A model generated the notes under the pieces. It did not search any database. It saw only the letters and a program-made list of their open reading frames with translations, and had not been told where the DNA came from. Of a DNA stretch of 64,000 nt, positions 5,316-55,874 are shown piece after piece. Numbering within the stretch: position 1 is the stretch's first letter; each line of letters opens with the position of its first letter. Location: assembly GCA_003165075.1 (NCBI GenBank), contig PLSM01000119.1:41027-105026 (forward strand), in the 5' to 3' direction. The position numbers and the translations under genes are program-made. This DNA is from Acidobacteriaceae bacterium (GTDB lineage Bacteria > Acidobacteriota > Terriglobia > Terriglobales > Acidobacteriaceae).

Positions 5316-6149
5316 ATGGACCCATCGGCTGATGACCTAATCGATGGCGGTATAGAGTCATCGTTACCTGCGGGCCTTCAGTCTGTGCAGACAACCTTGG
5401 CGCCCGCGTGGCACACACTGGTGCTGATGGCGGGGATTTTAGCCCTCTCTGTTCAAGGGGCCATGCGGATGCCGGCTTCGCATGGCTCGCCCAGCCGGCT
5501 TACGACTTATGCCCTCACGGCGCTGCTGGAGCTGTGCCTGTTAGCTTGGGTTGCCTTTGGGCTACGGCTCGCAAAGACGCCGCTGCGTTCGCTGTTTGGT
5601 TCCGTTCCCGCAGGTCTCCGCGCGATTCGCCAGGACCTTGGCGTCGCGTTCGTGTTCTGGATTGGCTCGTTGATGATTCTGGGCTCATTTGGAGTTTTGT
5701 GGTCACGTGTTGATGCCGCGGTCACTCACCGTGCGACCCAGATTCGTGACGGAAGACCCTTTGCGACTGATCCTTCGCAACAACAGGCGGTGCGCGTGAT
5801 GGTGCAGCTGGCGCCCGAGAATGGTGTGGAGATTGCTGCATGGGTACTGCTGTGTGTGCTGGCCGGCCTTGCGGAGGAGCTTGTGTTTCGCGGCTATTTG
5901 CAGCGCCAATTCACTGCGTGGGCAGGCGGCGCACGGGCTGTGGGTGTAGTGATCTCCTCGCTTGCATTCGGCGCGGCCCACGGTTATCAAGGCGTTAGGA
6001 ACATGGTGCTGCTGGCTGTGTTCGGTGTACTTTTCAGCCTGCTTGCAATCTTCCGCGGCAGTCTGCGCGCGGGAATCTTCGCACACAGTTGGCACGATCT
6101 CATTGCAGGTTTGACCGTGGCGTTACTCCATTCGCGTCACCTTCTTTGA
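5316..6149 (+). CDS. CPBP family intramembrane glutamic protease (CAAX-like)
   Basis: A 277-aa multi-pass membrane protein of the CPBP (CaaX protease and bacteriocin-processing, formerly Abi) family. It contains the three hallmark motifs: EELVFRGYLQRQF (catalytic Glu-Glu and Arg), SLAFGAAHGYQG (FxxxH-type) and AHSWHDLIAG (the C-terminal His/Asp). About seven hydrophobic segments span residues 30-270. Members process prenylated or signal-type peptides within the membrane; the bacterial substrate is generally unknown and no bacteriocin gene is adjacent. It stands alone in an intergenic setting on both sides. Family call secure, function generic. Confidence 0.88.
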   Translation: MDPSADDLIDGGIESSLPAGLQSVQTTLAPAWHTLVLMAGILALSVQGAMRMPASHGSPSRLTTYALTALLELCLLAWVAFGLRLAKTPLRSLFGSVPAGLRAIRQDLGVAFVFWIGSLMILGSFGVLWSRVDAAVTHRATQIRDGRPFATDPSQQQAVRVMVQLAPENGVEIAAWVLLCVLAGLAEELVFRGYLQRQFTAWAGGARAVGVVISSLAFGAAHGYQGVRNMVLLAVFGVLFSLLAIFRGSLRAGIFAHSWHDLIAGLTVALLHSRHLL

Positions 6150-6221
6150 GGTTCACAAGCGCATCGCCATCCAACCTGAAAAAATTGTTGCCACTTTTTC
6201 CACTTCATGTTCGTTTTTTGC

Positions 6222-6250
6222 TTGACACTGAGCATGCATGAATCTATACA
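6222..6250 (+). promoter_or_regulatory. Near-consensus sigma-70 promoter of the Lys-rich peptide gene
   Basis: TTGACA (6222-6227), a 17-bp spacer, then TATACA (6245-6250). It is the strongest-looking promoter in the window and lies 62 bp before the 23-codon ORF. The sequence around it is unusually AT-rich for this genome. Confidence 0.8.
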
Positions 6251-6312
6251 TTCTTCAACTGCAATTAATGATGCAGTCTCGATGCAACCCATCGAAAAGG
6301 GAGAATAGGACA

Positions 6313-6384
6313 ATGGCAACAAAGAAAGCAGCCAAGAAGGCACCCGCGAAGAAGGCCGCGAAGAAAGCCGCGAAGAAGAAGTAA
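6313..6384 (+). CDS. 23-aa lysine/alanine-rich histone-like microprotein
   Basis: A short ORF encoding MATKKAAKKAPAKKAAKKAA plus KKK. It consists only of Met, Ala, Thr, Lys and one Pro, with 11 Lys in 23 residues. AAGGGAG sits about 9 nt before the ATG. The gene is bracketed by a near-consensus promoter and a very strong intrinsic terminator, so it is its own transcription unit. The KKAAKK repeats resemble the C-terminal tails of histone H1 and of bacterial HU/AlgP-like proteins, suggesting nucleic-acid binding; this is inference from composition. It could also be a dual RNA/peptide gene, since the whole transcript would be under 200 nt. Coding is supported by the Shine-Dalgarno and clean codon structure. 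Confidence 0.75.
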   Translation: MATKKAAKKAPAKKAAKKAAKKK

Positions 6385-6405
6385 CGGGTCAACCAACCAA
6401 AAGGC

Positions 6406-6447
6406 AACACTAAGGGGGACGCTTCAAACGTCCCCCTTAGTGTTTCT
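6406..6447 (+). terminator. Strong intrinsic terminator
   Basis: A perfect 16-bp stem (6406-6421 with 6429-6444, core ACTAAGGGGGACG) closes on a 7-nt loop, followed by a short T-rich stretch. It ends the Lys-rich peptide transcript and insulates rsmE, whose start is 50 bp beyond. Confidence 0.88.
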
Positions 6448-6495
6448 GCGGAAGGATTAGACTGGCAAGCGCAAAGAGACTTTGGGAAGAGCATT

Positions 6496-7242
6496 ATGAC
6501 ACGCCGTCGCTGGATTGCAGAGCATTGGGATGAGATGACCGCGACCCTGGTGGGAGCGCAGGCCGAGCACATGACACGCGTACTGCGTGCGCAGCCAGGC
6601 ATGGAAGCCGACATTGTTGCAGGCGGCCGCGTGTTTCATGCGGAGGTAGCGGCCGTTACAAATGGACACGGCGCAACCAGTGTGGTCCGCTTCAATCTCA
6701 TCGCTGAGCTGAAAGCCGACCCTGCCCTGCCAGTCACCCTGGTAATGGCCGTATACAAGTTCGATCGCATGGAGTGGGCCATTGAGAAGGCAACCGAACT
6801 GGGAGTCGCCGCGGTGGCGCCGGTGATCGCGCGACGTACTGAGAAGCACTTAGCCCAGGCGGCAGAGAAGCGCGTCGAGCGTTGGCGGCGCATTGCCCAT
6901 GAGGCAGCCCAGCAGTCGAGGCGGTCAGACGTGCCGGTGATTCATGAGCCGGAACCTCTGGCCGCACGAGTGAGGTCCGCGTCGACGGACACGCGCATCG
7001 TGCTGGCCGAGCAGGAACGCTCGACCTCGTTGCGCATTGCACTGGAAGAATATGTAGCTGCGGCGCAGGCAGGGATGCCGCCGCTGGAACTCGCCATTGG
7101 ACCCGAGGGCGGATGGGCTCCAGAGGAAGAGGAACTCTTCGATGCCAACGGCTGGCGCGCGGTTTCACTGGGTCCGCGCATTCTGCGTGCGGAAACTGCG
7201 GCCATCGCTGCGTTGGCGGTGGCGGCTTCGTTCCTGGAGTAG
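6496..7242 (+). CDS. rsmE: 16S rRNA (uracil1498-N3)-methyltransferase
   Basis: SAM-dependent SPOUT methyltransferase that makes m3U1498 in the 30S decoding region. The 248-aa protein has the RsmE N-terminal PUA-like part (about 1-75, with GAQAEHMTRVLRAQPG). The C-terminal trefoil-knot carries EKATELGVAAVAPVIARRT, IGPEGGWAPEEEELF and LGPRILRAETAAIAALA, which form the SAM pocket. Length is typical. GGGAAGAG precedes the ATG by about 6 nt. It follows a strong terminator, so it must have its own promoter. It converges with the UxaA-family gene, with 12 bp between stops. Secure. Confidence 0.95.
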   Translation: MTRRRWIAEHWDEMTATLVGAQAEHMTRVLRAQPGMEADIVAGGRVFHAEVAAVTNGHGATSVVRFNLIAELKADPALPVTLVMAVYKFDRMEWAIEKATELGVAAVAPVIARRTEKHLAQAAEKRVERWRRIAHEAAQQSRRSDVPVIHEPEPLAARVRSASTDTRIVLAEQERSTSLRIALEEYVAAAQAGMPPLELAIGPEGGWAPEEEELFDANGWRAVSLGPRILRAETAAIAALAVAASFLE

Positions 7243-55467: not shown

Positions 55468-55874
55468 GAAGGATCATGATACCTGCCCGCGCAGGGCGCT
55501 CACAAACGCGAAGCAGAACCTAGTAAAGCTCGGCAACCGCTTTACCAGCTATATTCTCCGGAAAATAGCGGCTGGAAGGCACGATCTGAGAGCGGTGTCC
55601 CTTGGGTCGCCGTGGCCATTCAGCATCGACTATTACAGCTTTGTTACACTATTCTGCATTGGCTGTGGCCCGTACTCTGCGGATTCCAGGAATCCTCAGG
55701 GCTGGGGCCGCATCCTAAGTGTGAATGGGCTGCAACAACCCCGTGGATGGTTCTTTCTGGTCTTGGATGGAAGTCCGAGCCAGGGGTGGACGCATCCACT
55801 GCAGCCGCGGTTAGCTTTCAACATCCCCGCCCGCCATCCTACGAAGGGATGGGTTGGGCTGAAGGCGGAATACG
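55468..55874. other. 407-bp gene-free region between tatA/B and nadA
   Basis: No convincing gene on either strand. The plus-strand frame 55466-55891 lacks family matches and a ribosome binding site. A hairpin CCATCC-7-GGATGG (55834-55852), extendable with flanking GCCC/GGGC, lies 22 bp before the nadA start. It could be a REP-like remnant or act on nadA expression. AT-richer patches near 55545 and 55640 may hold promoters. Confidence 0.45.

Follow-up and report, generated by a model that had tools for sequence, protein, structure and literature searches.

A short transcription unit of the Acidobacteriaceae with a predicted lysine-rich microprotein and an RNA that some genera keep without the reading frame

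Histone H1-like proteins of the Hc2 type (Pfam PF07382) carry Lys-rich repeats whose number varies. Another H1-like protein, AlgP, has KPAA repeats and, according to the available part of its description, binds DNA and associates with polyphosphate granules (PMC9239181). Among RNAs, the enteric dual-function transcript SgrS/SgrT offers a case in which coding capacity is not always kept: the available sections of one account state that some species (Yersinia) retain the RNA and lack the ORF (PMC4021124). Bacterial small RNAs that code for peptides were the subject of a study of 14 bacteria, as far as the accessible text goes (PMC5521070), and two acidobacterial RNAs, Acido-1 and Acido-Lenti-1, are given Rfam accessions in the portion seen of their report (PMC2864571). 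In the open literature on acidobacterial small RNAs, small proteins, H1-like proteins and coding loss, the gene analyzed here is not described among the matches listed, within the parts of those texts that were available. Here we describe a short unit in a 64-kb window (the whole stretch of acidobacterial DNA that was analyzed, 64,000 nucleotides) and compare it with these systems.

Anatomy of the unit

A complete promoter-ORF-terminator unit is packed into 226 bp of the window (6222-6447; Table 1), downstream of a gene for a CPBP-type protease (5316-6149, + strand; PF02517) and upstream of rsmE (6496-7242, + strand; TIGR00046 and PF04452). The original prediction, which was made from the letters of the window, had called its promoter the best in the window. 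Indeed, TTGACA followed after 16 to 18 bases by TATA occurs only once on both strands of the whole 64 kb, whereas by a plain hexamer score (10/12, with at least 5/6 in the -35) the unit is tied by two minus-strand sites, at 1399 and 32961; the claim holds for the spaced pair of elements and not for the score. A promoter scan demanding T at position 6 of the -10 omits the unit's TATACA. The clear Shine-Dalgarno site, the 23-codon ORF with 11 Lys and the perfect 16-bp terminator stem were all found as they had been predicted.

In the terminator-like hairpin, 6406-6421 pairs with 6429-6444 around a loop of 7 bases. No perfect inverted repeat with a loop of 3-10 bases has a longer stem anywhere in the window, and the runner-up has 12 bp when another register of the same hairpin is set aside. 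On the + strand only TCTG, a short U run, lies 3' of the stem, and a terminator scan lists the hairpin for the minus strand alone; U runs are longer in the terminators of many relatives (GTTTTT, AAGTTTTTT). Folding of 6252-6455 (204 bases) gave a z of -4.08 relative to shuffles, none of 200 shuffles being as good. Two more hairpins (H1 and H2), which the original prediction had not listed, occupy the leader. In many relatives (the terminators of L037-L195) the stems have a common core, GGGGACGC...GCGTCCCC, and are more alike than termination needs; that exact core is absent anywhere in the window, where the 3' arm reads ACGTCCCC.

Table 1. Positions of the elements of the unit in the window
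Feature	Positions	Strand	Basis and remarks
Candidate UP element	6190..6221	+	T-rich, 5' of the -35; TTTTTCCAC and CGTTTTTT blocks common to relatives in an alignment of 28 same-genus loci
Promoter TTGACA-17-TATACA	6222..6250	+	-35 at 6222-6227, -10 at 6245-6250
Leader hairpin H1	6258..6277	+	Predicted fold; covarying pairs in 68 family sequences
Leader hairpin H2 (TCGATG...CATCGA)	6279..6295	+	Predicted fold; in 25 rows a G-C pair is exchanged for C-G, with further changes besides
AAGGGAGAATAGG, Shine-Dalgarno-like site with near-invariant flank	6297..6309	+	Sequence and alignments
ORF encoding MATKKAAKKAPAKKAAKKAAKKK	6313..6384	+	ATG to TAA; frame conservation, pN/pS
3' untranslated stretch	6385..6405	+	Ends in GGC of the AGGCAACAC motif, which is present in many relatives
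Terminator-like hairpin	6406..6447	+	Perfect 16-bp stem, short U run

Distribution, coding evidence and leader structure

With RsmE as the anchor in a genus survey of 59 genomes, 57 matched and 30 loci were taken, the window's own included. An intact MATKK...KKK ORF and the whole unit stand before rsmE in 28 of these; of the other two, L018 has the unit, but an assembly gap (N) interrupts its ORF, and L027 lies on a contig that ends too early, so that the unit is present in 29 of 29 loci whose DNA covers the site. Promoter, upstream T-rich blocks, leader, Shine-Dalgarno site, ORF and terminator are all conserved in the alignment of the 28 loci. Across ten of the same-genus loci the ORF has a mean identity of 87% and promoter plus leader one of 76%, compared with 57% on the upstream side and 53% on the downstream side.

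A search for the cassette across Acidobacteria, as the original prediction had proposed, showed that the unit is common in Acidobacteriaceae: a covariance model of the leader (R1) matches 193 of 250 family genomes, belonging to 72 of 79 genera. A wider model (R2) matches 233 of 298 genomes in an order sample, of which every listed genome belongs to the window's family, 55 of 250 in a class sample and 14 of 149 in a phylum sample. All R2 matches except one (G386) fall within Acidobacteriaceae. This exception, the sole genome sampled from its own family, is a convincing case, with MAKKPAKKAAKKKK behind the same promoter and AAGGGAGAATAG; the other extra-family pattern match (G566) looks like a chance one. 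Among named genomes, an exact DNA pattern found 79 stretches, all acidobacterial by title, including those of the isolates Terracidiphilus gabretensis S55 and Occallatibacter savannae AB23. One genome (G221) has two leader matches (L039 and G221:C7:687-772), of which one resembles the window's genus though the genome is filed in g33, perhaps reflecting a mixed bin.

A Lys-rich ORF of 12-37 aa is present in all 80 family loci read from the R1 matches, these being the better-scoring listed matches, about one per genus (30 + 50). Seventy-seven pass a strict pattern and the remaining three carry the ORF by reading, one starting MPAKKK and two having TAGA as the -10; TATA lies 17 bases past the -35 hexamer in 105/105 pattern-passing entries. 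When 11 weak leader-model matches were read, the ORF was found in five and not in six.

The resulting ORF set comprises 105 entries, with some genomes counted twice, and represents 99 distinct ORFs and 72 distinct peptides of 12-37 residues, the shortest being MATKKKAKKKKH. Lys makes up 40-69% of the residues across the entries, and D, E, F, W, Y and C occur in none. The peptides constantly start with MA and end in K or H, with H at the C-terminus of 26 of the 105. In the ATG frame, pN/pS is 0.11, 0.18, 0.15, 0.19 and 0.15 for peptides of 22, 23, 13, 14 and 15 residues (groups of 18, 20, 8, 7 and 5 sequences), compared with 0.53-4.0 in the two shifted frames of the same DNA. In the 23-residue group, entropy is 0.86 bits at codon position 3 and 0.31 and 0.24 bits at positions 1 and 2. 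Entries were chosen by Lys-rich patterns, which could lower pN, yet none of the 80 family loci was dropped for lacking the frame. Taken together, these comparisons indicate that the ORF frame is under protein-level selection. Lys codons are AAG in 827 cases and AAA in 224; of the 99 distinct ORFs, 98 have GCA as codon 2. This codon excepted, synonymous sites are nearly free where the ORF exists (pS 0.53-0.78), and the RNA sequence of the ORF body would therefore be under little constraint of its own, with peptide, leader and terminator carrying the selection.

The ATG at 6313 is the likely start codon, because the distance from Shine-Dalgarno site to ATG varies between 5 and 10 bases and because an in-frame start further upstream, present in 57 of 100 distinct leaders, is absent from the other 43. 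By the same evidence, an upstream in-frame extension (MMQSRCNPSKRENRT before MATKK in the window) is unlikely. Genes so short are often missing from annotation, and trypsin would shred such a Lys-rich peptide. The 23-mer has zero Pfam or NCBIfam matches at E up to 1, and a 37-mer relative (L051) has NCBIfam matches only, at E 0.4-0.7, far below the cut-offs. The suggested likeness to a histone H1 tail is one of composition: the 23-mer gives no profile match to HC2 or AlgP, and all 105 entries share the Lys/Ala/Pro composition without acidic residues. Elsewhere in the window's genome (L003 1446-2099, minus strand, G000 contig C108), a 217-aa protein joins an acidic N-terminal part to a long KKAAKKAPAKK tail; its match to HC2 is sub-threshold (29 bits, cut-off 40), as are its H1-like matches.

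The leader was compared across 68 family sequences, in which 94.3% of cells are paired, compared with 15.5-48.5% in controls with the structure slid along the alignment; the MAFFT alignment was made without structure, and the structure was set on it by eye, which favors it over the slid versions. Changes on both sides of a pair occur in 65 cells, versus 22.4 in shuffles, and 8 of 12 pairs have double changes, versus 4.9, in shuffles that ignore relatedness among rows. The set represents 68 of 77 rows, nine g1-type rows being omitted; its TTGAC, GGGAGAA and ATGGC columns are invariant because rows were selected by an expression that contains them. These alignments indicate that the leader hairpins covary across the family; within the window's genus they vary little and show little covariation. 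We also considered, by eye, whether the leader might switch to pairing with the start codon, and dropped the idea because g1 leaders do not keep the complement.

Genera that keep the unit without the Lys-rich ORF

One genus, g31, was first met through weak model matches, and the reading was then anchored on RsmE in g31 (11 genomes), g64 (9) and g44 (6). The unit lacks a MATKK-type frame in 11/11, 9/9 and 2/6 of these genomes, respectively (22 of 26). Conservation of the RNA with no conserved frame, which the original prediction had named, next to a lack of ribosome occupancy, as counting against it, is confined to these genomes and does not hold family-wide. In the other four g44 genomes (L243, L245, L254, L267) no unit was found before rsmE, and the unit therefore appears to be dispensable.

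The ORF-less units keep the promoter, GGGAG, the terminator and, by eye, the 5' hairpin; two g64 sequences have AATACT as the -10, and L258 starts inside the -35. After GGGAG, all nine g64 sequences have GGGAGCGCAGGCAAACGCAACC followed by CAAGG or CAGG, a one-base indel between species that would break any frame. What would be the old coding stretch, GCAACCAAG (as in ATGGCAACCAAG), can still be read in six of the nine species. Mean identity of the RNA body in g64 is 85%, versus 35% upstream and 41% downstream, and in g31 it is 62%, versus 33% upstream (a mean that includes ten mis-cut L258 pairs) and 42% downstream. Within g64 the linker is 90% identical, versus 75% for RsmE; RsmE identity across ten loci of the window's genus is 80%. 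Double changes affect 6 of 40 predicted pairs in g64, two in H1 and four in the terminator.

Other frames in these units were also considered. In each of the nine g64 sequences an ATG or TTG lies two bases ahead of GGGAG (MGAQANAT...); this frame was rejected as coding because it leaves no room for a ribosome site and is broken between species by the CCAAGG versus CCAGG indel. Five of the 11 g31 sequences (L252, L256, L263, L265, L266) have a basic-peptide ATG frame, M[RQ]SGGK..., that starts 19-26 bases past GGGAG and extends through the terminator hairpin. It lacks a nearby ribosome site and does not occur in the six remaining g31 sequences; this frame may well be untranslated, and we treat it so. 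In the two ORF-less g44 sequences, no frame of at least 8 codons was found in the scanned stretch. The non-coding claim is firmest for g64, because the basic frame of g31 could be translated.

An ORF that had moved elsewhere was sought with an exact pattern, which matched in 14 of the 26 g31, g64 and g44 genomes, always in proteins of 48-509 aa; no ORF of 12-37 aa was found by this pattern, whose sensitivity is limited (it found three of four positive-control genomes and missed G032). The nearest candidate is a 48-aa Lys/Ala-rich protein of a g64 genome (G212), with a different C-terminus and leader. That genome has Lys/Ala-rich proteins of 48 and 117 aa (L317, L302) with C-termini related to each other (VSIKAQRNNGPL) and a leader different from that of the unit. 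In g31 and g64 there are also proteins of 79-131 aa with a MATKK start, Lys-rich repeats and a common C-terminal module, KQAIAI.LS.AR..G.KVP (L301, L303-L305, L310, L313, L314, L316, L322, L324, L325, L327).

A midpoint-rooted RsmE tree of 53 rows included 8 of the 11 g31 and 8 of the 9 g64 rows, all 16 of which fall in a single clade (100/97) where two of the g31 rows are nested within g64. Rows of g44 stand in two places (97/93, 99/93), and ORF-bearing rows lie outside the g31, g64 and g44 groups. With 18 of 50 inner branches open in this tree, the ORF may have been lost once or more than once. Loss of the ORF rather than gain is the simpler direction, because G386, outside the family, has the ORF.

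Interpretation and comparison with known systems

Comparison shows a conserved unit anatomy, selection on the peptide, a covarying leader and a conserved RNA in genomes without the ORF. The explanation that we favor, with moderate confidence, is that the unit yields a stand-alone mRNA which encodes a polycationic microprotein and which also has, or has acquired, a function as an RNA. A sigma-70-type promoter would make a short monocistronic RNA from a start site just downstream; its 5' part would form two hairpins and its 3' end would be an intrinsic terminator. In most of the family a good ribosome site would direct translation into a peptide of 12-37 residues, mostly Lys and Ala. Strong expression is what the promoter, Shine-Dalgarno site and 5' hairpin would lead one to expect. 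The peptide might bind and neutralize polyanions (nucleoid DNA, RNA or polyphosphate), much as a detached histone H1-type tail would; judged from composition, this is our leading guess, since AlgP, which has a KPAA tail, is described as binding DNA and associating with polyphosphate granules. In g31, g64 and part of g44 the Lys-rich ORF would have been lost and the transcript unit would have stayed under selection, with the ORF-less RNA having, or gaining, a function of its own, most simply as a trans-acting or protein-binding small RNA.

The original prediction had left a choice between a microprotein and a small RNA with coding capacity, and the comparative evidence favors both rather than either alone. 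As in dual-function small RNAs, a short ORF appears to be under protein-level selection; conservation of the RNA apart from it, clear in g64 and less strict in g31, is observed in ORF-less genomes only. Conversion of an mRNA into a small RNA accounts for these data no less well than does a shared dual function. Because synonymous sites are nearly free where the ORF exists, g31 and g64 may have acquired the RNA function newly. We regard as evenly balanced the more specific proposal that an ancestral microprotein mRNA turned into a selected non-coding RNA in one clade. That clade would have retained the promoter, 5' hairpin and terminator and given up the start codon and frame, and its coding stretch would have become a conserved RNA element.

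Most of the remaining weight goes to a simpler reading that we nonetheless consider unlikely, namely that the peptide is the sole product, the hairpins stabilize its mRNA, and copies that lack the ORF are relics or code for different peptides. The selected frame with its little-constrained synonymous sites agrees with it, as do the g44 genomes in which no unit was found, the basic frame in five g31 sequences and the 48-aa protein of G212. Relics, however, would hardly be expected to retain an RNA body far more alike than its flanks across nine g64 species; H1 and terminator covary in g64, which decay would not produce, and the unit persists in every g31 genome. The converse, a non-coding small RNA throughout with the frame an accident of A- and G-rich sequence, can appeal to the leader covariation and to the genomes that retain the unit and have no Lys-rich ORF, but it is very improbable given that low pN/pS is confined to the ATG frame and that ORFs of 12 to 37 codons keep the same start and ends.

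Most improbable, in our view, is that a leader peptide and attenuator precede rsmE, with a ribosome on the Lys codons governing termination. A short Lys-rich ORF lies directly before a terminator, and 47 of 88 loci have rsmE downstream on the same strand, but in the other 41 this is not so: it is convergent, about 800 bp away, in three, and has no match within the fetched DNA in 38, at least three of which have less than 400 bp of DNA on the downstream side. When the longest ORF that starts within 500 bp downstream was located in ten loci, seven had it on the opposite strand; these are mechanical ORFs, some of doubtful frame (L187, L231). The terminator is also retained where the ORF is lost. 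In those ten loci the neighbors presumably include a thiolase upstream and, on the downstream side, a helicase-nuclease or RmuC protein. In these differing surroundings the promoter, leader, ORF and terminator stay together, which favors a stand-alone gene and disfavors a cis leader; on the convergent and unlinked arrangements, we reject cis regulation of rsmE. We give just as little credence to a secreted or antimicrobial cationic peptide, for which the small size and strong basicity would be suitable, since neither a hydrophobic face nor a signal sequence is seen by eye. A type I toxin, a short hydrophobic membrane peptide, was rejected in view of the Lys content of all 105 entries.

If the favored reading of a microprotein mRNA with an RNA function is correct, the unit is of interest in two respects. 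Peptides of 12-15 residues under purifying selection approach the lower limit for a gene, and a gene this tiny occurs across nearly the whole range of sampled genera of its family (72/79). The ORF-less branch offers a natural experiment in which the functions of peptide and RNA come apart, so that the transition from mRNA to small RNA can be tested directly.

No Rfam family reached the gathering score for the window unit or for 13 loci with and without the ORF (sub-threshold matches only), and neither Acido-1 nor Acido-Lenti-1 is among the matches. Two tandem nadA riboswitches (RF03013; 46.3 and 45.8 bits), seven bases apart, lie elsewhere in the window, at 55728-55866 on the + strand. Among H1-like proteins, Hc2 resembles the peptide in its varying Lys-rich repeats and differs in being much longer. 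AlgP resembles it in Lys/Ala/Pro composition but, in the available part of its description, has an N-terminal domain of its own and residue numbers up to 352, whereas the whole product of the unit has 12-37 residues (PMC9239181). The peptide-coding small RNAs, as far as their study is accessible, are likewise short bacterial RNAs with selected ORFs, of 10-50 aa (PMC5521070). Within what the available sections on SgrS/SgrT describe, that system would be the nearest precedent for loss of an ORF with the RNA kept: it shares with the unit a short transcript, a small ORF, an intrinsic terminator and species in which the ORF was lost and the RNA retained, and it differs in that the pairing region of SgrS lies downstream of sgrT, whereas the conserved part of the ORF-less g64 RNA sits at the former ORF (PMC4021124).
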